Assembly: GCA_030747075.1 (NCBI GenBank) | Contig: JASLLL010000041.1 | Coordinates: forward strand, 1-16,528 | Reading direction: 5' to 3' | Length of the DNA stretch: 16,528 nucleotides | Source of the DNA: Gemmatimonadota bacterium | Lineage (GTDB): Bacteria; ARS69 | Shown here: positions 681-12,190 of the stretch, one piece after another | How positions within the stretch are numbered: position 1 is the stretch's first letter | Layout: the number at the start of each line of letters is the position of its first letter | Notes under the pieces: generated by a model | Databases searched by the model: none | Seen by the model: only the letters and a program-made list of their open reading frames with translations | What the model was told of the DNA's origin: nothing | Position numbers and translations under genes: made by a program

Positions 681-788
681 ATGAAGAAGAACCCGCAGTT
701 GAGCGGACAACTCTTCCGCCTCATACTGGCTGGACTGCCGGAATGGGCTGCCCTTCGTTCGTCGATGCACACTCTCAGGGGAATGTAC
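681..788 (+). pseudogene. Possible decayed precursor-peptide start fused in frame to the downstream gene
   Basis: The ATG at 681 has the same SD (AGAGGTGA) and first six codons (MKKNPQ) as the intact peptide gene at 4898. After that the F-x-x-L-x-x-R-E-L-L-K motif is missing; alignment suggests small deletions. The frame continues without a stop into the secreted protein at 789. Codon third positions here are mixed, unlike the GC-biased genes around. It may be a precursor remnant, or a functional N-terminal extension of the next protein (274 aa from 681). Confidence 0.35.
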
Positions 789-1505
789 ATGCGGCAACAC
801 TGGAACTGGATCGCAGTACTCTCGCTTGTGGGGGTCTTGGAATTGAGCGGCGCACCCGCGGCGACATTCGTTCCGACCTACAGTTACGTGGGCTACGGCG
901 AAACGGTGAATTCCGGGTTCGACGGCGTGCGCGGCAGGATCCAGATGAAGGACTCGGACAACGTAACAGCACCGACCGGGACCGCCGTGTGGTGCAGCAT
1001 GGGAACGTGCCATGTGTGGATCCAGAACCGGGAGTGGATCCAGGCCGGCTGGCGCCAGTTGTCCGATGGGACGAGGCAGATCTACGGGGAGGTCAAGACC
1101 GAGTACGGCCTGACTTCGGACATCAGGAGCTTTGAGTCCCCGTTGCCGCCGGAAGGGCTCTACAAATGCCGGAAGAACGGATCCGTCTACGAATGCATCG
1201 TCGATGGGTTCCTGATGAACTCCACAGCGGTCGGCGACATCGAGGACCGGTTGTGTGCCGCGGTGTTCGCCGCGGAGATTCAGGACACGCAGGATCACGT
1301 GCCGGGCCACAACAGTGATCGGGTCCAGTTCTCCGAGTGCCAGGTTCGGTTCATCCATCGGCCGGAGGGCACGAGCTACGAGGATGGAGAGATCACGCAG
1401 CCGCTGGACTCAGCTGAGACGTACGGAGCGGCGAAGTCGGCGGCGACGCTCGTTCCAGGCTCGGGCTGGACGTTCGACGTCTGGGACACGAGGAACCAGC
1501 CATGA
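789..1505 (+). CDS. Secreted cysteine-containing protein of unknown function
   Basis: The ATG at 789 is preceded by AGGGGA (777-782) with 6-nt spacing and opens a 238-aa protein with a clear signal peptide: MRQHWNW, a hydrophobic stretch IAVLSLVGVL, and a likely cleavage after GAPA. The ATG at 681 is an in-frame alternative with its own SD. The mature part holds six cysteines (CSMGTC, YKC, YEC, RLC, SEC), enough for three disulfides, and an aromatic WIQNREWIQAGW segment, suggesting an extracellular beta-rich domain. I do not recognise the family. It is the first gene of an operon that follows the copy-1 promoter; its stop overlaps the next start (ATGA). Being driven by the same promoter type as the peptide operon suggests a shared physiological cue. 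Confidence 0.82.
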   Translation: MRQHWNWIAVLSLVGVLELSGAPAATFVPTYSYVGYGETVNSGFDGVRGRIQMKDSDNVTAPTGTAVWCSMGTCHVWIQNREWIQAGWRQLSDGTRQIYGEVKTEYGLTSDIRSFESPLPPEGLYKCRKNGSVYECIVDGFLMNSTAVGDIEDRLCAAVFAAEIQDTQDHVPGHNSDRVQFSECQVRFIHRPEGTSYEDGEITQPLDSAETYGAAKSAATLVPGSGWTFDVWDTRNQP

Positions 1506-2311
1506 AACCAACACTGAGGAGAGCATCCGCCCATGCCGGGGCGGCCGTAGTACTTCTAGCCCTGCTCGGAGTGCACTCGGGCGCGGCGGGACCGTCAGAC
1601 ATCCAGAGGGGTCCCGCGCGCCAGACGGTATCCATCGCGCCGACGACCGCTGCTCCCGGGGTCAGACGCCCTGCTGATGTCCGGGCGCTCGCCGCAGCGT
1701 ACCTGGGTCGGGACGAACCACAGGTCGCGCTGGGCGAAGCAGAGCCGGTGGAGTTTTGGGATGAGAGCCCTTTCGGGGAAGACTACGAGGGCAGGGTTCT
1801 CTGGTCGGTGCGTGCGACCGGGGTTCGGATCGCTCGGACCGAGCGCCCGGATTCCGCCGTTGTGAACGTGACGCTCATCCTCGATGAGGCGGGCCGTCTG
1901 CAGTGCGCGTTCACGGACCCGAAGGTGGAGTGGGTCGTTTCGGCGGACGGCTCGTACGAGGACGTCGAAACGAAGGCGCGCAAGAACCGGATGGCGGCGC
2001 GACCGCTTCGCGAAGACGAGCGCTGCGAATCGTCGGTCGCAGACGTGCTCGGCGCCCTGTGGTCCAGAAGGGGCATCGACCCCTCCGAGCCCGGCCAGCT
2101 CGTGCTCCGGCCTCGATTCGTCTCCCGGGGGTTGCCCGCGAAGGAGGTGGACGGGGAGTGGGTGCCGGTGCCGCTGCCAGGGCCCTACTGGCTGGCGGAA
2201 ATTCGCGGCATGATCACGCTGATCAAGTACGGGCACTACTACAGCGGACAGCTCGTCGCCATGGACGATGACCTTGGGCGTCAAGACTCCCAGGGGACCT
2301 ACATGCCGTGA
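1502..2311 (+). CDS. Secreted protein of unknown function
   Basis: This is a 269-aa protein whose ATG overlaps the preceding stop (ATGA), implying translational coupling. The N-terminus (MKPTLRRASAHAG, then AAVVLLALLGVHSGAAG) is a typical signal peptide. The mature sequence mixes acidic and basic residues, has two cysteines (QCAF, RCES) and no obvious repeats or catalytic motif. Segments such as GRVLWSVRATGVRI and SAVVNVTLILDEAGRLQCAF look like beta strands of a small exported domain. I recognise no family. It sits between the previous secreted protein and the C25-type protease, so it could be a partner or substrate of that protease, but nothing in the sequence shows this directly. Confidence 0.82.
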   Translation: MKPTLRRASAHAGAAVVLLALLGVHSGAAGPSDIQRGPARQTVSIAPTTAAPGVRRPADVRALAAAYLGRDEPQVALGEAEPVEFWDESPFGEDYEGRVLWSVRATGVRIARTERPDSAVVNVTLILDEAGRLQCAFTDPKVEWVVSADGSYEDVETKARKNRMAARPLREDERCESSVADVLGALWSRRGIDPSEPGQLVLRPRFVSRGLPAKEVDGEWVPVPLPGPYWLAEIRGMITLIKYGHYYSGQLVAMDDDLGRQDSQGTYMP

Positions 2312-2325
2312 GAAGGAGGAGCACG

Positions 2326-4341
2326 ATGAGTCTCCATCGAGTCGCAGCCGGGGGTGTGGCCATTCTCCTGACCGTGGCCGGCGCGGCACAGTCGTTCGAG
2401 TGCCCGGAGCAATGCACCAGTCTGTGTGCGATTTGCGGCGACAACCCCGCCGCGAGCGCCGAAGCGTTCTTCATCTACGACGGCGTGGCAACCTGGGAGA
2501 TCGCCTGGGAGCATGAGACCCGCGAGTACTTCCTGGAGAGCGCAGATGACCCGACCATGGGCGAGTGGCTGCCGGTTGCCGGCGGTCCGTGGCGCCCGGG
2601 TCAGCGCAGGTACTCGACGAGTCTTCCGGCCGGGGCGGGGGAGTTCGTGCGGCTCGTGGAGATCGAGACGGACGGCAACCGACGGGTGCTCGACTACGCA
2701 CGGCAACAGCCAACCCCGACTCCCTTTGATCGACCGCCAGCGCCGACGGTGGAGGAGCTGCGAGCGCGGGTCGACTCTCTCCTGGCAGTCCGGACGCAGG
2801 GACTGCAGTCCCCGGCCGGTGCGGGAACGCTGGTGGTCTACGCGCCGTCGGCCTTCATGTCCGACCTTCAAGCCTACTTCGACTACGGTACTGCGTATGG
2901 CTACACGGTGATCCCGGAAAGCATCGACGGGTATCCGACGTCCCCCGATCTGTTCCGCGCCACTCTCAAGCAGAGCATCGCGACGCACGCGGGGGCCGGT
3001 GCGTTCTACTTCCACCTTGTTGGCGACGCGAACGATTGGCAAGAGTTTGATGGGCCGTTGACCTCCCAGTACTGGGTTGGGAGCTGGGAATCCGTCCGCC
3101 AGTCGTACCTGGACGGCGGCTTCCCGGCGGGAGGTCAGCCGTTGTTCAACGTGATCCCGACCTACGCGGTCGCCGACACGCTGCCACCGGGCACGAACCA
3201 AGCCCGGTGGTATCCGTACTGGACCTCGGACCAGCCCTACGCCGACGTGGACGATGATGGATACCCCGATGTCGTCGTGACACGATGGCCCGCGACGGAT
3301 GTTACGGATGTCGTGTCTTTCGTGGGGAAGACGCTCTCGTATGGAGGGCTGGGAGGGGGGTCGCCCTTGTACGTCGCGGAGCTGTTTGTCTGGGACTGGG
3401 AGAATATGAGCGGCGGTCACGGCACCGGTTCCTTCATCCGGGGTGTTGCCGACAGCGTTGCGGCCACGCTGTCGGCCTTCTCGTCTGTGTCCTCCCTGTA
3501 TGCGTTTCCCAACTATGGAGAGTCTGGCCTGGTGGGGCCGGCGGTCGGTGAGTGGAACTGGAACCGCCCGGATCTCGCTGTGATCCTCGGATCGGAGTCC
3601 CATCGGTACTCTCCCGGCAAGTTCTTCAGCAAGAAGGTCGGCGCCGGCTCTTTCGACGTTGGGATGCTCGCGAGCGGTCACCCGGCGTTCGTCCTGGGGC
3701 CGACATGCGGGACCGGCGACTGGAGCATGACCGAGGACATGGACTACGGCCCGCCGGTCTGCGAGGACTTCCTGCGCCATCCCTGGGACGGTGCGATCGC
3801 ATGGGCCGGTCCGTCGGCCGCAACATGGCAACAGGGGAACGTGGAAGTTATCGTCCGGATTCTCGATGAGGTCGTTGCGAATCCCGATCGCCCGATGGCG
3901 GAGTCCTGGCTGGTGACTATGCAGCGGATCGCGTCCGAGTTCTCCGACAGCTCGCCCATCCGCGAGACGGCAGATTCGTACATGTTCTTCGGGGATCCAT
4001 TGAGTAGGCTTACCTCGGGAGGAGGAACACCGACGGGGGGCTCGCTCGACCAAGGGGTGCCCGGCCGTCTTGCCCTTCTCCCTGCGTCCCCGAACCCCTC
4101 CTGGGGTGGGAGCCGGATTCACTTCTCGGTTCCCGACTGCGCGCCAGTGAACCTGGCCGTCTATGATGTTGGAGGTCGTCGCCTTCGCACGCTTGTGAGC
4201 GAGGAGCGTCCGCAGGGGCGCTACAGCGTGCAGTGGGAGGGGCTGACCGATGAGGGTCGTCGTGCGGCTGCCGGGGTGTATTTCGTTCGTCTTGACGCGG
4301 GCAGGGAGGCGATCACGCGGAAGCTTGTGCTCCTTCGGTGA
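2326..4341 (+). CDS. Peptidase C25 (gingipain-type) with C-terminal FlgD-like Ig domain
   Basis: This is a secreted cysteine protease of the C25/caspase-like fold, 671 aa. The ATG at 2326 follows AGGAGG (2314-2319) at 6 nt, better than the overlapping GTG at 2308. Residues 1-23 are a signal peptide, followed by a Cys-rich stretch (CPEQCTSLCAIC). The catalytic domain spans about 160-560: GTLVVYAPS, HLVGDANDW, then DDGYPDVVVTRWPA, the family's D-x-Y-P-D-x-x-x-x-R-x-P-A block. His426 (GSESHRYS) and Cys461 (GPTCGTGDW) are the likely dyad; His is not followed by the usual Gly. The end (about 585-671, SPNPSWGG ... GVYFVRLDAG ... KLVLLR) is the Ig-like domain often found at the C-terminus of secreted FCB-group proteins. 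It is the last gene of the copy-1 operon. Possible roles include processing of secreted peptides or general proteolysis. Confidence 0.88.
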   Translation: MSLHRVAAGGVAILLTVAGAAQSFECPEQCTSLCAICGDNPAASAEAFFIYDGVATWEIAWEHETREYFLESADDPTMGEWLPVAGGPWRPGQRRYSTSLPAGAGEFVRLVEIETDGNRRVLDYARQQPTPTPFDRPPAPTVEELRARVDSLLAVRTQGLQSPAGAGTLVVYAPSAFMSDLQAYFDYGTAYGYTVIPESIDGYPTSPDLFRATLKQSIATHAGAGAFYFHLVGDANDWQEFDGPLTSQYWVGSWESVRQSYLDGGFPAGGQPLFNVIPTYAVADTLPPGTNQARWYPYWTSDQPYADVDDDGYPDVVVTRWPATDVTDVVSFVGKTLSYGGLGGGSPLYVAELFVWDWENMSGGHGTGSFIRGVADSVAATLSAFSSVSSLYAFPNYGESGLVGPAVGEWNWNRPDLAVILGSESHRYSPGKFFSKKVGAGSFDVGMLASGHPAFVLGPTCGTGDWSMTEDMDYGPPVCEDFLRHPWDGAIAWAGPSAATWQQGNVEVIVRILDEVVANPDRPMAESWLVTMQRIASEFSDSSPIRETADSYMFFGDPLSRLTSGGGTPTGGSLDQGVPGRLALLPASPNPSWGGSRIHFSVPDCAPVNLAVYDVGGRRLRTLVSEERPQGRYSVQWEGLTDEGRRAAAGVYFVRLDAGREAITRKLVLLR

Positions 4342-4648: not shown

Positions 4649-4649
4649 C

Positions 4650-4700
4650 GGTTCCGCCCCCCCGGAACCACTGGTTCCGCTCCCGGGCATGAGAGGAACC
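4650..4700. promoter_or_regulatory. Inverted-repeat array, likely activator binding site (copy 2)
   Basis: GGTTCCG 4650-4656, CGGAACC 4663-4669, GGTTCC 4673-4678 and GGAACC 4695-4700. The perfect dyad CGGAACCA-N-TGGTTCCG occupies 4663-4679, centred 120 bp upstream of the -12 GC. The geometry is identical to copy 1. Confidence 0.55.
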
Positions 4701-4776
4701 GTGGCTGCGCGGCGTCTCGCATGGAACGGGTTGCCGCACAGTAAGTTGGGCACTTGTTGCATTTGGCGGGCTTGGT

Positions 4777-4791
4777 TGGCACGGATTCTGC
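4777..4791 (+). promoter_or_regulatory. Sigma-54-type -24/-12 promoter (copy 2)
   Basis: TGGCACGGATTCTGC, followed by A, so this copy also matches the preferred A/T after TTGC. One mismatch to consensus, correct GG-GC spacing. The predicted start is near 4803, giving a ~95-nt leader to the ATG at 4898. It would drive the three peptide genes and probably the acyltransferase and protease genes behind them. Confidence 0.62.
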
Positions 4792-4897
4792 AATGGAGTG
4801 GGGCAACTCGCTGAGTTCCCCGCGTCGCGTCGGCGGCATGACGCAGGGGGCGGGGTTTTGGCGGGGAGGAGACGCATCAAACGAGAGAGAGGTGAAC

Positions 4898-5017
4898 ATG
4901 AAGAAGAACCCGCAGTTCGAGCAGTTGGAGAACCGGGAACTCTTGAAGGTCCCGTGGCGTTTTCCGTTCTTGCCGCCGTGGTGGCCGGATCCGTATCCGT
5001 GGGAACCGATCTTCTGA
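4898..5017 (+). CDS. Putative precursor peptide A (39 aa), Trp/Pro-rich core
   Basis: A tiny gene with SD AGAGG (4888-4892) 5 nt before its ATG. Residues 1-18 (MKKNPQFEQLENRELLKV) form the presumed leader, sharing F-[DE]-x-L-x-x-R-E-L-L-K-[IV] with the next two peptides. The C-terminal ~21 residues (PWRFPFLPP..., ending WEPIF) contain eight prolines, four tryptophans, three phenylalanines and one tyrosine, with no cysteine, serine or threonine. That excludes lanthionine- or thiazole-type modification but would suit an unmodified or aromatic-modified peptide. Known parallels are RiPP or bacteriocin precursors. The leader also resembles the LEPR-XLL-type N-terminal motif of planctomycete surface proteins, an alternative reading, though those are attached to large proteins. 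It is the first gene after the copy-2 promoter. Confidence 0.75.
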   Translation: MKKNPQFEQLENRELLKVPWRFPFLPPWWPDPYPWEPIF

Positions 5018-5071
5018 TAACCAGAGGACAAAGAGGGCCCATGGAAGCAACGACTGTAAGGAGGAGAGAGC

Positions 5072-5206
5072 ATGATGAGGCAGGAAGCCGTGTCGTTTGA
5101 CGAGTTGAGTCATCGAGAACTGTTGAAGATCGATCCCACTTGGTGGTGGGGGCTGGTCATTGTGGTCGCCACTTACATGATTGAAAATCCGCCGAACGGA
5201 GGGTAG
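5072..5206 (+). CDS. Putative precursor peptide B (44 aa), hydrophobic core
   Basis: AAGGAGG (5058-5064) precedes tandem ATGs at 5072 and 5075; the second matches the start of peptide C (43 aa from there). The leader is MRQEAVSFDELSHRELLKID. The core begins PTWWWG and runs into the hydrophobic GLVIVVATYMI, then ENPPNGG. It has no cysteine; a single Thr-Tyr pair and the three adjacent tryptophans stand out. Aligned with peptide C from the tryptophan block onward it reads L-x-I-x-x-A-x4-E-x-P-x2-G-G, so B and C are paralogues. Length, leader and hydrophobic core fit a leader-type secreted peptide (RiPP, epipeptide-like or class II bacteriocin-like). A small membrane peptide or toxin cannot be excluded. 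Confidence 0.8.
   Translation: MMRQEAVSFDELSHRELLKIDPTWWWGLVIVVATYMIENPPNGG
5074..5138 (+). repeat. 65-bp perfect direct repeat, first copy (leader of peptide B)
   Basis: Identical, including all synonymous positions, to 5212-5276, at an offset of 138 bp. It covers the leader from the second ATG through the first bases after KID-P. Confidence 0.95.
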
Positions 5207-5211
5207 GGCAC

Positions 5212-5276
5212 GATGAGGCAGGAAGCCGTGTCGTTTGACGAGTTGAGTCATCGAGAACTGTTGAAGATCGATCCCA
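5212..5276 (+). repeat. 65-bp perfect direct repeat, second copy (leader of peptide C)
   Basis: Second copy of 5074-5138. Identity ends at the core, where the two genes diverge at once. Confidence 0.95.
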
Positions 5277-5341
5277 TTGATTTGTCGCTGCTCATTTTGC
5301 TCGCCATAATCACGACGGAAGGTCCGTCGTACGGAGGGTAG
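5213..5341 (+). CDS. Putative precursor peptide C (42 aa), hydrophobic core
   Basis: It starts 6 nt after the stop of peptide B. The SD (GGAGGG, 5198-5203) is formed by the final two Gly codons of B. The leader is identical to B in protein and DNA (65-bp perfect repeat, 5212-5276). The core (after KID) is PIDLSLLILLAIITT, then EGPSYGG, a Leu/Ile-rich stretch with two threonines and a Gly-Gly end. Next to B, the core differs at most positions and is one residue shorter, yet still aligns (L-x-I-x-x-A-x4-E-x-P-x2-G-G). Paired paralogues with the same leader suggest a two-peptide product, or a diversifying family served by one processing machinery. Confidence 0.8.
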   Translation: MRQEAVSFDELSHRELLKIDPIDLSLLILLAIITTEGPSYGG

Positions 5342-5357
5342 GGAGTCTCAGCATCCA

Positions 5358-5394
5358 CCGGCCGTGGGGAAGGATATCCACTTTCCCCGGCCGG
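5358..5394 (+). terminator. Strong hairpin between peptide genes and enzyme genes
   Basis: CCGGCC (5358-5363), a 2-nt bulge, GGGGAA (5366-5371), an 11-nt loop, TTCCCC (5383-5388), GGCCGG (5389-5394): a 12-bp GC-rich stem. No T-run follows, so it is more likely a partial terminator or an RNA-stabilising or processing structure. It would let the peptide mRNA accumulate above that of the downstream enzymes. Confidence 0.5.
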
Positions 5395-5424
5395 GCTTCC
5401 CCTGTTTCCCGGGAGGGCAGTTTC

Positions 5425-6312
5425 ATGATCATCGTGAATCGATGGGCTCCGGCGGTTCTTGCGCCGCTCCTGTTCGGCGTGACGCGGGGGACCGTCCGGA
5501 AGCGGGTTCACACGAGCCTGTATCTTGCGATGACGAATCTGGGCCGGAAGGCGAGTGCGACAGGTGTGGACCACATGGTTGCGAGGAACTTCAGAAGCCT
5601 CTTCACCGATCGCCTGCATTCGCTGGTGCTGCTCCTCCCCCATTGGACCTTCAGGCGCATCGTGCAGCGTTCCGTGCCTCCGCAGGGGGCCCCGGCGCTG
5701 GAGGCCGCGCTGGCCAAGGGGAAAGGCGCCATTGTGTTCTCGTGCCACATGGGCCCCTATGCGCTGATTCCAGCGATCCTCTCCACGCTGTTCTACAAGG
5801 TGACCGCAGTCGACAAACTCAGCTACCTCGTCCGCCCCACGGCCCTGGCCAAGGTGGAGAAATCCAACGCGGCATATGGAGAAGACCGCCTGGAGACTCT
5901 CCCGGTGGGCGACGGGTTGCTTCTTCGCAAACTCGAGCGCCGGCTTCACGAGGGGCGCGTCGTGTTCATGATGGGGGACTACCGGGGGACACCCGCCCGC
6001 GGCGCCGAGCCCATTCGATTCCTTGGGCACCCGGTACACGCGGGGCGCGGTCTTGCGTGGTTGCACGCGAGGACAGGGGCGCCGCTGATCCCCGCCATCT
6101 TCACATTTGAGAAGGGAAAGCCCCGGCTTGAGGTTGGCGAGGAAGTGAATGTCGAGGGTCTTCGGACTCCGCGGGACATCACGCAGAGAATCTACAAGAC
6201 GCTGGAACAACGAATCCTGAAGAGCCCCGAGCGCTGGGCACTGTGGATTGACTACCATCTCATGGTCTCCCACGAGACACTGAATGCCGAAAAGGAGAAC
6301 AACCCCCAATGA
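5425..6312 (+). CDS. LpxL/HtrB-like acyltransferase (LPLAT superfamily), atypical active site
   Basis: A 295-aa protein; SD GGGAGGG (5411-5417) is 7 nt before the ATG. The order of landmarks matches the lipid A acyltransferase family: a basic N-terminal part, an HX4-type block (IVFSCHMGPYALIP, His108), a GD-centred block (MMGDYRG, Asp185), then RFLGHPVHAGRGLAWLHARTGAPLIPAIF. Family members transfer acyl chains to lipid A or glycolipids at the inner face of the cytoplasmic membrane. The acid expected five residues after the catalytic His is Ala113, so the usual His-acid pair is absent. The protein may have changed chemistry, use another acid, or be inactive. It is the first large gene after the peptides and its stop overlaps the M1 start (ATGA). 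Acylation of a peptide or of a lipid carrier is an inference from position only; ordinary lipid metabolism is possible. Confidence 0.8.
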   Translation: MIIVNRWAPAVLAPLLFGVTRGTVRKRVHTSLYLAMTNLGRKASATGVDHMVARNFRSLFTDRLHSLVLLLPHWTFRRIVQRSVPPQGAPALEAALAKGKGAIVFSCHMGPYALIPAILSTLFYKVTAVDKLSYLVRPTALAKVEKSNAAYGEDRLETLPVGDGLLLRKLERRLHEGRVVFMMGDYRGTPARGAEPIRFLGHPVHAGRGLAWLHARTGAPLIPAIFTFEKGKPRLEVGEEVNVEGLRTPRDITQRIYKTLEQRILKSPERWALWIDYHLMVSHETLNAEKENNPQ

Positions 6313-9239
6313 ACACGAGACGCAGAGAACTCGGACGCCAAGTGATCGGAAAGCGGGCAGGGGTCTTGGTCGCTCTCTTCGCGACGCTCCTGGCGGTTGC
6401 GCCGAGTTGGGCGGGTCCGGAGCTTCGCTATGACATCCGGGCGTCGCTCGACACCCGGGAGAAGACGATCACGGGGATGGAGCGCATTGTCTACGCGCAC
6501 GACGCGGACGGTCCGCTGGACGAACTCTATCTCCACCTGTATGCGAACGCCTACCGGAGCGAAGCAACCACCGCGGGCCGGGAGGCGGAAGAACAGCATC
6601 ACGACTTCACGCTGGCGCATACGCCCTTGAAAGACCGGGGGTGGGTGGAGATTCGGTCAGTGTCAGTCAACGGGCGATCCGTATCGCACGAAGTCGACGA
6701 GACGCTGATGCGTATTGGTCTTCCGGAGCCTGCGATGCCGGGAGAGGTGTTGGTGCTGGAGATTGACTTCATGACGAAGATCCCACGCGTTCCCCATCGC
6801 TTACAATACTCCGGCTCCCAGTTCACATGTGCGCAGTGGTATCCGAAGATGGCCCTTCGCGACGAAGACGGTTGGCACAAGGACAAGTACCACCTGGTCG
6901 GTGAGTTCCACGGCGAGTTCGCCACCTACGATGTCCGAATCGAACTGCCGGGCGATTACTATGTGGGAGCGACCGGGCATCTGGTGGAGGCGGTCGGTGG
7001 AGACAACGACATTCCCGAGGCCTCGGCGGCCATGCGGGGCGAAGCGGGTGCGGGGTCTTCCGGCAGCGAAACGACCCCCTCCGCCGAGCGCAAGACACTG
7101 GCCTTTCACGCGGAAAGAGTGCACGACTTCGCGTGGGTCGCGTCCCCGGACTATGTGAAGGACTCTGCGGAGTGGCGGGGCGTGACCGTGACCGCGCTGG
7201 TTCTCCGGAAGGACTACTCCGGGGAGTGGGAAAACCTCCTGGAGTACTCGCTGGACTCGATCGAGTTCTATTCCGACCGCGTCGGCATGTACCCGTACTC
7301 GCACCTTACGGTGGTGGAAGCCGCATCTCACCCGAATGGCGGTATGGAGTACCCCATGCTGAGCATGCTGGATCCGGGTCTGGGGAACTGGTTGACGAAG
7401 CACCGCCTGGAGGAGGTGGCGTCGCACGAGATCGGTCACATCTGGTGGTACGGAATCGTCGCAAACGATGAGGTTCAGGAACCGTGGCTCGACGAAGGAA
7501 TCAACCAGTACTACACGCATCAGTACCTGGAGTGGAAGTACGGAGACAGGGAGTGGAAAGGGCCGGGTCTCGTGCGGACACTCCAGAGTCTGGGGGGCGA
7601 TGCGTTTTCCACACGCGACGGTATGATCGCATTCCTCGGGAGGGGGGGACTGAATCAAGTCATTGACCAGCCCGCGTACCACCTGGGGGGCATGGCCGAG
7701 TACGGCACGATTGTTTACGCCAAAGGATCGCGCGTTCTGGAGATGTTGGGTGCGGTGGTGGGTGACGAAGTCCTGGATGACATCATGAGATCATTCTACG
7801 ACGAGTACAGCTTCCGGCACCCGAGTATAGAGGACTTCGTTCGCGTCGCGGAGACGGTCAGCGGCGAGGAGTTGGACTGGTTCTTCGATCAATGGCTGCG
7901 TACGGGGAAGAGTTGCGACTATGCGGCAGGGGGGGTGAGTCGATCGTCCTGGAATGAGTCCACTGGCGAGTATGTGACGACGGCCGAAGTTCTCCGAGAG
8001 GGCGAGATCGTCATGCCGGTGGAGGCGGAGGCGATTCTCGCGAACGGTGAACGAGTGACCGAGACCGTTTTCGCCGAAAAGGAGAAATCGCTGGTCACCT
8101 TCCACACAGAGAGCCCCGTAGAGAAAGTCGTTGTGGATCCACGGCATCGCCTCCTGGAGTGGGACCGCATGGACAACCAGAGCGGGTTCCTTCCTCCCGT
8201 CCAGTGGTCCGGGCTCTTCCATGGCGAGCAGGAGAGGGAACCGCCCAGCGCCTACCCCGTCCGCCTGAATCCGACGCTTGCGTACAATTCGGTCGACCGA
8301 TGGAGGGTGGGTGTCAGCATGGGAACTCCCAGAGTGACACTGGTTCCGCACAGATTCCTGTTGAGCGTTGATTACGGAACCGCCAGCGAGAAATGGAACT
8401 ACCGGAGTCTCCTCGTCACGACGACGGGCCGAAATGGCGAACTGTCTCTTGCGGCGTCTGACGCAGCCGGGCGGAGAGGGGTGGCCTTCGAGTGGAAAAC
8501 GCCGTCGGTCGTCACTCGGGTGGCGAACCGTGCCAGGACTGAAATGCCGAAGAAGACGACGCGAATATCGGCGGGCTTTCGCGATCGCTACAACGATCGC
8601 TACGAAGACCCGAAATGGTCTTCGCCGGGGAAGACCACTCTCGTCGAGTGGGTCGGAACATATGAGAACAAGGGATACCATGGCTTCACTCAGGGCCGGG
8701 TGGAAGTCGGTGCGGGAATAGACATGCTGGACCCGGATTACACATTCCGACGCGGTTGGGCGGAGGCGAGCCAGGATCTTCGTCTTGGGAGAACAGGGGC
8801 GGTGCTCTTCCGATTCCGCGGGACTGCGGGGCTGGTAACCGACGGGGCGCCGATTCAGGAGCGGATGCATGTGGCTCTCGGCGTTCCGGCGTCTACCGTG
8901 AACCCCGTCGCATTTCTTTCCAGGCACCGGGGCGGCGGGGGTGTGCGCGGATACCAGACCGAGGCGGCCTTCGGAACGAATGTCCTGGCCGCAGGCGTGC
9001 AGCTCTCGAGCAAACGCTTTTCCCTGGGTCCGGTGACGCCGATCCTGTTCTTCGACGGCGGAAGGGTTGGCGGAGATGGGGATTCGCGGCTTCTGGACCG
9101 GGTTGTCTATGACGCCGGGCCCGAGTTCTGGATTGCATCCGTTCTCAACCTCAGCTTTCCCGTGTGGCTCAGCGATCCCCCTGTCGATGAAGACGAGTTT
9201 GACTTCCGCATGGTGGTGAAAGGAAACCTGGCCTTCTGA
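6309..9239 (+). CDS. M1-family metallopeptidase fused to outer-membrane-barrel-like domain
   Basis: A 976-aa exported zinc peptidase. AAGGAGA (6292-6298) lies 10 nt before the ATG, which overlaps the upstream stop. A signal peptide (about 1-36, ending VAPSWAG) is followed by an M1 N-terminal beta domain and the catalytic domain: GGMEYP (344-349, the GxMEN-type motif) and HEIGH-x18-E (His373, Glu374, His377, Glu396, in PWLDEG). M1 enzymes usually remove N-terminal residues from peptides. After about residue 640 the chain becomes beta-strand-like with alternating polar and hydrophobic residues. It includes VRGYQ (879-882 plus Q), a later FFDGGRVGG, and a C-terminal Phe, all features of Omp85/BamA-type barrels. 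M1 enzymes are commonly 550-870 aa, so this tail is an extra module that could anchor the peptidase in the outer membrane. Next to leader peptides, leader removal or trimming is a plausible role. Confidence 0.87.
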   Translation: MNTRRRELGRQVIGKRAGVLVALFATLLAVAPSWAGPELRYDIRASLDTREKTITGMERIVYAHDADGPLDELYLHLYANAYRSEATTAGREAEEQHHDFTLAHTPLKDRGWVEIRSVSVNGRSVSHEVDETLMRIGLPEPAMPGEVLVLEIDFMTKIPRVPHRLQYSGSQFTCAQWYPKMALRDEDGWHKDKYHLVGEFHGEFATYDVRIELPGDYYVGATGHLVEAVGGDNDIPEASAAMRGEAGAGSSGSETTPSAERKTLAFHAERVHDFAWVASPDYVKDSAEWRGVTVTALVLRKDYSGEWENLLEYSLDSIEFYSDRVGMYPYSHLTVVEAASHPNGGMEYPMLSMLDPGLGNWLTKHRLEEVASHEIGHIWWYGIVANDEVQEPWLDEGINQYYTHQYLEWKYGDREWKGPGLVRTLQSLGGDAFSTRDGMIAFLGRGGLNQVIDQPAYHLGGMAEYGTIVYAKGSRVLEMLGAVVGDEVLDDIMRSFYDEYSFRHPSIEDFVRVAETVSGEELDWFFDQWLRTGKSCDYAAGGVSRSSWNESTGEYVTTAEVLREGEIVMPVEAEAILANGERVTETVFAEKEKSLVTFHTESPVEKVVVDPRHRLLEWDRMDNQSGFLPPVQWSGLFHGEQEREPPSAYPVRLNPTLAYNSVDRWRVGVSMGTPRVTLVPHRFLLSVDYGTASEKWNYRSLLVTTTGRNGELSLAASDAAGRRGVAFEWKTPSVVTRVANRARTEMPKKTTRISAGFRDRYNDRYEDPKWSSPGKTTLVEWVGTYENKGYHGFTQGRVEVGAGIDMLDPDYTFRRGWAEASQDLRLGRTGAVLFRFRGTAGLVTDGAPIQERMHVALGVPASTVNPVAFLSRHRGGGGVRGYQTEAAFGTNVLAAGVQLSSKRFSLGPVTPILFFDGGRVGGDGDSRLLDRVVYDAGPEFWIASVLNLSFPVWLSDPPVDEDEFDFRMVVKGNLAF

Positions 9240-10576
9240 TGGGCCCGGGCCTTCACGAACCGGGCGGACCGGTTTCATCGCGGAGAGGAACACACCGCCC
9301 TTGCCGGGGAGAGCCCGCCGCGCTTCCCCCCGGAAAGGCAGGTTCCGTCGTGCTTCGGCGGAACCCCGGCTGCGAAGTGTCCATGCAGCGGAGTGGAAGT
9401 GAGTCCTTCGCGCTCGTTCGATTCGGGGACCGGTACTTGAAACTTCGCGGGGCGTTTTTCCGTTTGTTTGAAGCACTCGATGGAACGGTTTCTGTGAACA
9501 CAGCGATTGCCCGCGTGTTTGCGTCGAACGATATCCCGCCAACGGAAACGATCGACGAGTTCCTGGTACTGTTGTTCAGGAACCGAATGGCTCTGCCCGT
9601 GTCCGCGATGGACACCGATGTGCTTGAGAGGATGTCGAAGGAACGGAGCCCCGCGAAGGCCTCGGTTGGAAGTGCGATCGGGCGGCGCATGGTAAGGGCG
9701 AGGGTGGCGTTCTGGCCTGCGGATCGCTTTGTGACCTTCCTGTACGGCGTGGTCGGCCGGGTTCTTTTTGCGCGGCCGTCCGTGGCGGCGATGTCTGCGT
9801 CTGCGCTGGCAGGGCTGTGGCTGCTGGGCGCGCAACTCTCGGGGGCCGATCCGGCTTCGATGTACTCGGCGGTGGTTCACGGGAATGTCGGTCCGGCGGC
9901 GGCGGCGATGTTGCTGGCCATGGGACTCCTGTCGATGTTGACTCACGAAATGGCGCATGCATTGGCGTGCAAGCACTACGGGCGCCGCGTGTCCGGGTTC
10001 GGAGTCATGTTCTACTACGGCGTTCCGGCCTGCTTTGCCGACACCACCGATGCATGGATGCTGTCGCGCGGGAAGCGCGCGGTCATCGACGGAGCGGGGA
10101 TGTTCGCGAATGCCGTCATGGGGTCTGCCTTCAGCATTGCGGCGTTTCTCCTTCGCGGGGAACCGGTGTGGCAGGTTCTCGTGCTGGTCGCGGCAGTCAA
10201 CTATCTGTCGCTCCTCGGGAACCTGTGGCCGCTTCTGAGATTCGACGGTTACTACATTCTCTCCGATCTGATGGACCGGCCGAAACTGAGAGAGGAAGGA
10301 ATCCGGGCCGCCCTTTCGCGAGAGTCATGGGTTTGCGCCATTCGGAGGAACGCGTCCCGGGCGGAGACCGGCGTGCTCCTCTTCGGTGTGGCTTCGCTGG
10401 CTTTCACCGCCGTCGCCGTCGCCGGCCTGAATCAGTATGCCGTGACGGCGGCGCGGAGAATCATCCCGGGAGTGTACGGGGACCTCGCGGCGGCGGTGGC
10501 GGTCGTCTTGATTCTCGGTACGCTCGCGAGTTACTGGCGTCGCGAAGTGACGGGAGCACGGAACCTCCGTGTGTGA
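9239..10576 (+). CDS. Membrane M50-type metalloprotease with N-terminal PqqD/RRE-like domain
   Basis: A 445-aa protein; ATG 9239 overlaps the M1 stop (TGATG) with only a weak upstream AAGGAA, so the start may lie further in. Residues about 38-115 (VVLRRNPGCEVS ... RYLKLRGAFFRLFEALDGTVSVNTAI ... FLVLLFRNRMAL) have the pattern of PqqD-like RiPP recognition elements, small winged-helix domains that bind leader peptides. Then come hydrophobic segments with the zinc motif HEMAH (His236, Glu237, His240) and LLRFDGYYILSD (Asp336, the likely third ligand), as in 'putative peptide zinc metalloprotease' proteins such as YydH. About six membrane segments are visible. In known clusters such proteins lie beside short precursor peptides and ABC transporters and are thought to cut or handle the peptide. 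Here it closes the operon that begins with three leader-type peptides, a strong contextual match. Confidence 0.85.
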   Translation: MGPGLHEPGGPVSSRRGTHRPCRGEPAALPPGKAGSVVLRRNPGCEVSMQRSGSESFALVRFGDRYLKLRGAFFRLFEALDGTVSVNTAIARVFASNDIPPTETIDEFLVLLFRNRMALPVSAMDTDVLERMSKERSPAKASVGSAIGRRMVRARVAFWPADRFVTFLYGVVGRVLFARPSVAAMSASALAGLWLLGAQLSGADPASMYSAVVHGNVGPAAAAMLLAMGLLSMLTHEMAHALACKHYGRRVSGFGVMFYYGVPACFADTTDAWMLSRGKRAVIDGAGMFANAVMGSAFSIAAFLLRGEPVWQVLVLVAAVNYLSLLGNLWPLLRFDGYYILSDLMDRPKLREEGIRAALSRESWVCAIRRNASRAETGVLLFGVASLAFTAVAVAGLNQYAVTAARRIIPGVYGDLAAAVAVVLILGTLASYWRREVTGARNLRV

Positions 10577-10594: not shown

Positions 10595-11389
10595 CTATTT
10601 CACGAGGCGGCGCTTCATCAATACGAGTGCGGCAACACTCAGCACGCCCGAGACCACGATCAGATACGCGAGGCTCGCGGGCCACGCCGTCGGGAAGTCG
10701 CCGAGGCACGCGCCTCGCACGAGAACCGCCAGGTGCGTCAACGGGAGCGCCATAGCGACGGCGTGGAGAGGTGCGGGGAGGATTTCGAGCGGGAAGAAGG
10801 TGCCGCTGAAGAGGAACATCGGGAAGATGAGCAGAAAGACCGGCAGGTTGAAGGAGTCGATCGTGCGAGCGCGGGAAGTCGCGATGAGTCCCACGCTTGC
10901 AAACAGGATTCCGCCCAGCGCTGTCAGCGGGACCACAAAGAGGCCCCACGGCCACGCTACCAGTCCGAAGAGCGAGAGAATGCCGAGGATGGTTGTTCCC
11001 GCGAAGACGGACTTCGTGGCGCCCCAGAGCCACTCCCCCGCGATGACATCCTCCACGAGAAGGGGCGTGGCGACGATTGCGTCGAAGGTGCGCTGGTAGT
11101 ACATCCGCACGAACGACGAAAAGGTCATCTCGAAGAATGACCAGAACATGACCGCCATGCAGATCACACCGGGTGCCATGAACTCGAGATAGGGAAGGTC
11201 GCGCCCGCGGTGCTCCACCGTGTCGATGAGGGAACCCACGCCGAATCCGAACGCGAGAACATACAGGACGGGCTCGAGAAGCGGCGGCAGGACATTCGTG
11301 AGCCATGTGGTCCGGGCCACATCCGCGTTGCGACGCCATACGAGCCATGCGCCATGGGAAACATTGCGAAGCGATGCGGACGCGCTCAT
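10595..11389 (-). CDS. ABC-2 type transporter permease (NodJ-like)
   Basis: A 264-aa integral membrane protein; the ATG at 11389 follows GGGGAG in the end of the ATPase gene, 7 nt upstream, with three bases between the genes. It has about six hydrophobic segments (for example LFVVPLTALGGILFASVGL and NLPVFLLIFPMFLFSGTFFPLE). The FLFSGTFFPL stretch is typical of ABC-2 permeases of the NodJ/daunorubicin-resistance group, which export lipo-oligosaccharides, drugs or peptides. It pairs with the ATPase upstream. The gene ends 18 bp from the end of the M50 gene on the other strand, so the two operons converge. A link to peptide export is a guess from proximity; it is not in the same transcript. Confidence 0.88.
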   Translation of the reverse strand: MSASASLRNVSHGAWLVWRRNADVARTTWLTNVLPPLLEPVLYVLAFGFGVGSLIDTVEHRGRDLPYLEFMAPGVICMAVMFWSFFEMTFSSFVRMYYQRTFDAIVATPLLVEDVIAGEWLWGATKSVFAGTTILGILSLFGLVAWPWGLFVVPLTALGGILFASVGLIATSRARTIDSFNLPVFLLIFPMFLFSGTFFPLEILPAPLHAVAMALPLTHLAVLVRGACLGDFPTAWPASLAYLIVVSGVLSVAALVLMKRRLVK

Positions 11390-11392
11390 CGG

Positions 11393-12190
11393 TCAACTCC
11401 CCAGCGACTTTCCGGTTCGACGCAGGAAGACATCCTCCAGCGTGGCGGGCCGGGTGATGCGGTTCGCGTCGTCCCCGCCGGCGGTCTCGACGACTTCGCC
11501 GCCGATCTCCTGCTCGACCAGCTCCCCGGGTGGGCCGTCCAGAAGGATCCGGCCGCCGTCCATGAGAATCACACGGTCGCAAAGCCGCGCCGCCTCTTCC
11601 ATGTAGTGAGTCGTGAGCAGTACCGTGACGCCCTCCGCCTTCAGGCTCTCCACGCGACGCCAGATGAGAAGGCGGGCGTCGGGGTCGAGGCCGGTGGTCG
11701 GTTCGTCGAGAAGAAGAAGGTCGGGCCGGTTGAGGAGTGACCGCGCGAGTATGAGCCGGCGCTTCATGCCGCCGGAGAGTTCGTCGATCCGCGCGTCGGC
11801 GCGATCCTCCAGTCCGACCATCGCCAGAAGCTCCAGCCCGCGTGTTCGCGTCTCTTCCGTGGATAGTCCGAAGTAGCGCCCGTACACCAGGAGATTCCGC
11901 AAGACATTGAAATCCGGATCCAGGTTGTCCTCTTGCGGGCAGATTCCGAGGCGCGCCTTGATCCGGCGCGGGTCGGCGGTCACATCCATGCCGAATACCC
12001 GGGCCGACCCGGCGGTCACGGGAAGAAAGCAGGAGATCATGCGGACGGTCGTCGTTTTTCCCGCCCCGTTCGGCCCCAGAAACCCCACGCACTCTCCGGG
12101 TTCCACCGAGAAGTCCACGGAATCAACCGCCGTGAAGGAGCCGTACCTCTTCGTGAGACCGCGCGCCTCTACCGGGTGAAGTGGTTTCAT
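11393..12190 (-). CDS. ABC transporter ATP-binding protein (NodI-like)
   Basis: A 265-aa ATPase with all motifs intact: Walker A GPNGAGKTT, Q-loop CPQEDNLDPDFNV, signature LSGGMKRR, Walker B LLLLDEPT, and H-loop TTHYMEEA. The PQxDNLDP...NLLVYGRYFG block is characteristic of NodI and related ABC-2 exporters. It drives the permease encoded directly behind it. The ATG at 12190 faces the TPR lipoprotein gene at 12305 across a 114-bp divergent spacer that must hold promoters for both; I see no clear -35/-10 pair or sigma-54 element there. Substrate unknown. Confidence 0.92.
   Translation of the reverse strand: MKPLHPVEARGLTKRYGSFTAVDSVDFSVEPGECVGFLGPNGAGKTTTVRMISCFLPVTAGSARVFGMDVTADPRRIKARLGICPQEDNLDPDFNVLRNLLVYGRYFGLSTEETRTRGLELLAMVGLEDRADARIDELSGGMKRRLILARSLLNRPDLLLLDEPTTGLDPDARLLIWRRVESLKAEGVTVLLTTHYMEEAARLCDRVILMDGGRILLDGPPGELVEQEIGGEVVETAGGDDANRITRPATLEDVFLRRTGKSLGS

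Follow-up and report, generated by a model that had tools for sequence, protein, structure and literature searches.

What do three adjacent, very small open reading frames (ORFs) at 4898–5341 of a Gemmatimonadota contig encode, and what would process their products? Within the window (the whole 16,528-nt stretch of DNA that was analyzed), these ORFs, here P1, P2, and P3, stand in a co-directional block (4898–10576) whose other genes encode a homolog of acyltransferases, a metallopeptidase of the M1 family, and an M50 protease with a fused RRE (RRE-M50). We examined the peptides, the protease, and the neighboring genes, and compared them with known systems and with RRE-M50 loci elsewhere.

Three small peptides with a common leader and different cores

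P1 (4898–5017, forward strand) encodes a predicted 39-aa precursor peptide (MKKNPQFEQLENRELLKVPWRFPFLPPWWPDPYPWEPIF) with the leader FEQLENRELLKV and an aromatic, proline-rich core containing Trp. P2 (5072–5206, forward strand; a second ATG at 5075 is also a possible start) encodes a 44-aa peptide (MMRQEAVSFDELSHRELLKIDPTWWWGLVIVVATYMIENPPNGG) with the leader FDELSHRELLKI and the hydrophobic core TWWWGLVIVVATYMIENPPNGG, and P3 (5213–5341, forward strand) encodes a 42-aa peptide (MRQEAVSFDELSHRELLKIDPIDLSLLILLAIITTEGPSYGG) with the hydrophobic core IDLSLLILLAIITTEGPSYGG. The cores of P2 and P3 are short and helix-like, and the cores of P1, P2, and P3 end in F, G, and G, respectively. Each gene has a Shine-Dalgarno sequence: GAGAGAGG for P1, AAGGAGGAG (strong) for P2, and a moderate GGAGGG for P3, which lies ~10 nt upstream and overlaps the 3′ end of P2.

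All three peptides carry F-[DE]-x-L-x-x-R-E-L-L-K-[IV] at the N-terminus. The first-pass annotation had described three tiny adjacent ORFs sharing this motif, and they lie exactly where it placed them: a six-frame search of the window returned three matches, against none in 300 base-shuffled windows. The local similarity between P1 and P2 was reached by 2 of 20,000 shuffles, and that between P1 and P3 by none of 20,000. The DNA of P1 is otherwise unlike that of P2 and P3, and P1 did not arise by recent copying of either. P2 and P3 stem from a tandem duplication (no further copy was found in the 2.67-Mb genome), and their leaders and cores have fared very differently. None of the 63 leader nucleotides differ between them, whereas 23 of 66 core nucleotides do; the 14 changed codons are all nonsynonymous, and the frame is intact (Fisher’s exact test, leader vs. 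core: P = 2.6e-8). A leader under constraint beside a core that diversifies is what one expects of precursor peptides, and the contrast supports the leader/core layout that the annotation had proposed; gene conversion is a possible alternative cause of the leader identity.

An RRE fused to a site-2 protease

The block ends with a gene (9383–10576, forward strand; alternative start at 9239) for a site-2/M50 intramembrane protease that is fused to a PqqD-like RRE (residues ~1–80). Both zinc motifs are intact (HEMAH at 188–192 and LRFDGYY at 285–291). Pfam detected M50 and missed the RRE in the window protein, and PqqD was matched by three of six aligned relatives. A profile built from 35 relatives matched solved structures of PqqD (3g2b, 7–79) and mjS2P (3b4r, 172–289); its matches to two other RREs, 5ff5 (PaaA) and 6jx3 (TfuB1), were weaker. 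In the AlphaFold (AF2) model, whose mean pLDDT is 86.7, a β-hairpin at the N-terminus is followed by three helices, which is the RRE/PqqD topology, and then by a membrane domain; Foldseek returned SpoIVFB and mjS2P as best matches, with modest E-values. Profile, model topology, and zinc motifs thus agree with the earlier statement that an RRE fused to an M50 protease is encoded in the same co-directional block as the peptides.

Scanned from the alternative start, the protein matches the daptide protease model NF041824 over model positions 75–375 of 379 (E = 4e-46), at 158 bits against an equivalog cut-off of 300, and the RRE-M50-HlyD protein of a LEPR operon scores equally. The match to the Yyd/LiaK model (YydH, NF058609) reaches 49 bits. 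The annotation had likened the locus to the Yyd logic without a radical SAM enzyme. The epipeptide Yyd/Epe system (YydH/EpeP) does resemble the window in having an M50 protease and a small precursor, and the window indeed encodes no radical SAM epimerase (the rest of the genome has one SPASM protein, on contig C3), while Yyd/Epe itself has such an epimerase. The remainder of the analogy found less support: among curated models the daptide protease comes closest, and the ABC genes lie outside the operon; the Yyd-type reading was set aside on its weaker match, 49 vs. 158 bits.

Other genes of the block and the convergent ABC pair

The gene following P3 (5425–6312, forward strand) encodes an LpxL/PatA-like acyltransferase homolog (PF03279) that reads HMGPYA at the HX4[D/E] motif and so is missing the acidic residue. 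Its paralogs mostly have HxxxxE (HMGNWE, HTGNWE, HLGCWE, HFGNWE), one of them also being without the acid. Because HMGPYA replaces the HxxxxE of most paralogs, catalysis by the window protein is doubtful. It had no match among PDB sequences. Its stop overlaps the start of the M1-family metallopeptidase gene (6312/6309), and the M50 gene, if it starts at 9239, would in turn overlap the end of the M1 gene. The M1 protein (6309–9239, forward strand) has an intact HEIGH...E, a GGMEYP motif, and a long C-terminal extension of unknown fold; its N-terminus is signal-peptide-like, and it is probably secreted. With HEIGH kept and an apparent export signal, it may trim the product outside the cytoplasm and so have a part in maturation.

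An ABC-2 permease (10595–11389, reverse strand) and an ABC ATPase (11393–12190, reverse strand) follow. The Yyd logic to which the annotation had likened the locus includes an ABC transporter, but this pair runs toward the M50 gene from the other strand and thus is not part of the operon transcript. It is a candidate exporter whose membership in the system is uncertain. PADLOC returned only generic ATPase matches.

A duplicated upstream element with a putative sigma-54 promoter

The regulatory element upstream of P1 (4649–4897, forward strand) is duplicated at 433–680 with 94–96% identity. The repeat (217 nt at 4649–4865) continues 20 nt into the P1 coding sequence, with near-identical stretches of ~270 nt at 433–704 and 4649–4920, and a third copy, partial and more diverged (77%), lies on contig C29 (G000:C29:30301-30461, L003). 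From the consensus, we recognized a putative sigma-54 type −24/−12 promoter, TTGGCACGGATTCTGC, at 4776–4791 (forward strand). It is present in each copy of the element, the exact 16-mer is confined to those three places, and the genome encodes RpoN (rpoN); P1–P3 are probably under sigma-54 control. The 433 copy precedes a three-gene block (681–4341) whose last gene encodes a C25 peptidase. Because element and promoter are duplicated and RpoN is encoded, P1–P3 and this block probably form one regulon. An Rfam search returned nothing.

The element carries GGTTCC/GGAACC inverted repeats. The 433 copy includes the 20 nt with which the P1 gene begins, here in frame with an ORF for a secreted protein, and looks like a recent promoter capture. 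The C25 (gingipain-type) peptidase that ends the block under the duplicated promoter (2308–4341) has an FlgD-like/T9SS-type C-terminal tail.

LExR-type leaders beside RRE-M50 genes elsewhere

Small ORFs with related leaders are found around RRE-M50 genes in other bacteria: IEKLEERIAP in a Gemmataceae MAG (L081, two small ORFs), VQELESRVAP in an acidobacterium (L082), IEDLEDRIAP in a proteobacterium (L115), IEELEERIAP in L046, ITRLEDRIVP in a planctomycete (L104), EELEDKTAP in a Terriglobia MAG (L101), and EVLEEKVAP in a Zixibacteria MAG (L073). In an Ignavibacteria MAG, two Cys-rich peptides with the leader DLExRLELS (L067:21-263 and 627-830) lie upstream of a standalone RRE-M50 gene. LExR-type tags adjoin RRE-M50 genes in about six phyla.

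A first ranking with a position-specific scoring matrix was circular, its ten motif rows having been drawn from the same loci that were ranked, and a looser count of LE.R, with 10 near and 16 far where permuted or altered motifs gave 0–5 near, is only suggestive. We then froze a 13-column motif model and applied it to 20 further RRE-M50 loci with 3,912 ORFs. The five top-scoring ORFs all adjoin the protease, at distances of 123 bp (L176), 279 bp (L171), 319 bp (L170, divergent), and 433 bp (L175), the fifth being a LEPR-XLL giant at 2.8 kb (L166) that was already known before the test. On the strand of the protease and no more than 2.5 kb from it, three ORFs scored ≥14; 100 column-permuted controls averaged 0.05 such ORFs and never gave more than 1. 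LExR-type leaders are therefore statistically linked to RRE-M50 genes outside the window. The fit of the P1 leader to the external LExR motif was reached by 17 of 100,000 shuffles, and the leaders of P2 and P3 taken alone matched it weakly (2.3 and 9.7% of shuffles, respectively), so that the tie of P2 and P3 to the LExR family would run through P1.

Several further observations concern these loci. The two Cys-rich Ignavibacteria peptides have identical ends (CSFCSYCGGDEICNTM). Very short ORFs (25–36 aa) with LE-[ED]-K-x-AP and then a Gly-rich end sit directly downstream of RRE-M50-type genes (L171:8535-8612, L175:7736-7816, and L073:3647-3757). Two proteins of 1,050–1,130 aa (L170:5469-8873 and L050:214-3360), divergent from the neighboring RRE-M50 gene, begin with KLDEIVAPGA, possibly a further variant of the tag. 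At one of the 20 new loci (L185), a small ORF with IDELEQLEAP...T scored 24.3 bits with a daptide precursor model, the cut-off being 25. M50 genes of the same family also lie near leader-bearing small peptides of the Os17/NHLP/Nif11 type (L047, L048, and L072), where the leader family differs (Os17/NHLP).

Giant tagged proteins share the neighborhood

At two loci (L105 and L129), the neighbor of RRE-M50 is a giant protein that bears a curated LEPR-XLL tag and has >2,200 aa inside the locus. On proteobacterial plasmids (L188, L193–L195, and L200), RRE-M50 is fused to HlyD in the order giant protein, TolC, RND-type adaptor, HlyD, RRE-M50-HlyD; an E. coli plasmid (L200) has the same gene order. 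The N-termini of all four plasmid giants that were read carry an LExR tag: SLEPRMLFDGA in Kosakonia, ALEPRVVYDAS in Burkholderia, ALEPRFMFDAA in Azospirillum lipoferum, and ALEARYMFDAA in Variovorax. The first three score slightly below the LEPR-XLL cut-off, and the Variovorax giant has no LEPR-XLL match. The A. argentinense giant is uninformative because its annotated ORF begins inside a longer open frame. Among 386 genomes, LEPR-XLL and RRE-M50 occur together in three (G232, G263, and G360), and two (G247 and G029) have strong LEPR-XLL matches without RRE-M50, so the association is not obligatory.

Distribution

The 386 genomes yielded neither a second copy nor a close relative of the operon. 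A public genome scan gave no close relative among the matches listed, viral contigs gave no relative, and plasmids gave distant homologs with no close relative. Of the five genomes of the phylum that were searched, the other four lack the M50 gene, all four being more fragmented than the genome studied here. We found no relative that keeps the M50/M1/acyltransferase set.

Discussion

We put at roughly two in three the probability that P1–P3 are ribosomal precursor peptides whose leader is read by the RRE and cut by the fused site-2 protease, with a probable sigma-54 switch. Transcription of P1–P3 would be turned on by the sigma-54 promoter, the N-terminal motif would be bound by the RRE of the 9383–10576 protein, and binding would hand the peptide to the intramembrane site-2 protease, which would cleave right after the leader and free the variable core. 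Trimming or modification of the product would be possible roles for the M1 and acyltransferase-like proteins. Leader binding, cleavage site, and export route are predictions. The products are most likely short hydrophobic or Trp/Pro-rich peptides, and we infer that they are secreted and membrane-active, either antibacterial or signaling. An RRE domain adjoins short leader/core precursors, as in RRE-dependent RiPPs in the broad sense, and apart from the doubtful acyltransferase homolog no core-modifying enzyme is recognizable.

The closest known logic is that of daptides (MpaA/MpaP; NF041824 and NF041808), which have several precursors with an ELExMEAP leader and aliphatic cores, the leader being removed by an RRE-site-2 protease (PMC10036551); their products are cut after ELExxxxx (PMC12338566). 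The window is alike in its several short precursors, its hydrophobic cores, and, at a score below the equivalog cut-off, its RRE-site-2 protease fusion, and its leader layout is related, with LENRELL/LSHRELL (LxxRELL) in place of ELExMEAP. It thus appears to hold a daptide-like system in which an RRE reads the leader and a site-2 protease cuts. In contrast to daptides, P1–P3 lack the invariant C-terminal Thr, and the window encodes acyltransferase-like and M1 proteins and no MpaB/C/D/M: neither MpaB nor an aminotransferase, alcohol dehydrogenase, or methyltransferase was found in the 16.5-kb contig. For want of a daptide tailoring enzyme in the contig and of the C-terminal Thr, we do not class the system as a daptide. 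One could still suppose a daptide whose enzymes MpaB, C, D, and M are encoded elsewhere in the genome, as the protease similarity, multiple precursors, and hydrophobic cores would allow, but the Thr is absent from all three peptides and no daptide precursor model matches them, and we give this supposition the least credence of those considered. Hardly more credible is that the peptides are chance ORFs from recent duplications, the similarity of P2 and P3 being an artefact of tandem duplication. The region is rich in duplications (the 217-nt repeat at 433/4649 and a 79-nt repeat at 5060/5198), but P1 shares the motif despite its otherwise unlike DNA, and the core changes between P2 and P3 are all nonsynonymous with the frame kept.

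Two other readings deserve more weight and are nonetheless unlikely. LExR could be an export tag; the peptides would then not be antibiotics but small surface or signaling components, sorted in the manner of LEPR-XLL proteins. LEPR-XLL/Planc_extracel (NF012209 and PF07595) shares its LExR-x-LL core motif with P1 (LENRELL) and has RRE-M50 neighbors in several loci, and the same type of tag is found both on those giants and on the giants beside TolC-HlyD-RRE-M50 operons. The known carriers, however, are giant surface proteins, unlike the small P1–P3. P1 reached E = 0.25 and 11.6 bits with PF07595 (cut-off 25.5) and did not match NF012209, and P2 and P3 did not match PF07595. The protease of the giant-protein operons is fused to HlyD and accompanied by TolC, whereas that of the window is standalone, with no TolC or HlyD gene in the contig; moreover, the P2 and P3 cores are helix-like as in daptides, and core variability suggests diversification. 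We rate marginally lower a lipopeptide pathway, in which the LpxL-like protein would acylate the N-terminus exposed by leader removal and the lipopeptide would be secreted. The position of the PF03279 homolog between peptides and proteases, and the overlap of its stop with the M1 start, would suit this pathway, but the acid of HX4[D/E] is replaced (as it is in one paralog) and we found no precedent for this family acting on RiPPs. We retain leader reading by the RRE and cleavage by the fused protease; differing from daptides and from giant-protein operons alike, the window would represent a new variant of RRE-site-2 protease leader processing.

With somewhat less assurance, we favor the broader view that a single widespread leader family comprises the LExR motif of such peptides, ELExMEAP of daptides, and the LEPR-XLL/Planc_extracel tag of giants, and is read by RRE-site-2 protease proteins, which would act alone or, for giants, fused to HlyD and paired with TolC. 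We found no paper linking LEPR-XLL and RRE-M50 among the open-access papers searched, which is weak evidence. If this view is true, there would be a system in about six phyla that reads a tag, cuts, and exports cargo of ~25 to ~16,000 residues, and RiPP leader recognition and the tag of giant surface proteins would be the same molecular mechanism. This would account for the function of the LEPR-XLL tag, at least in the presence of an RRE-M50 gene, and would suggest a function for many RRE-M50 and LEPR-XLL genes. An LExR tag beside an RRE-M50 gene would also be a simple handle for finding new secreted peptides, for example in the sparsely sampled phylum studied here.
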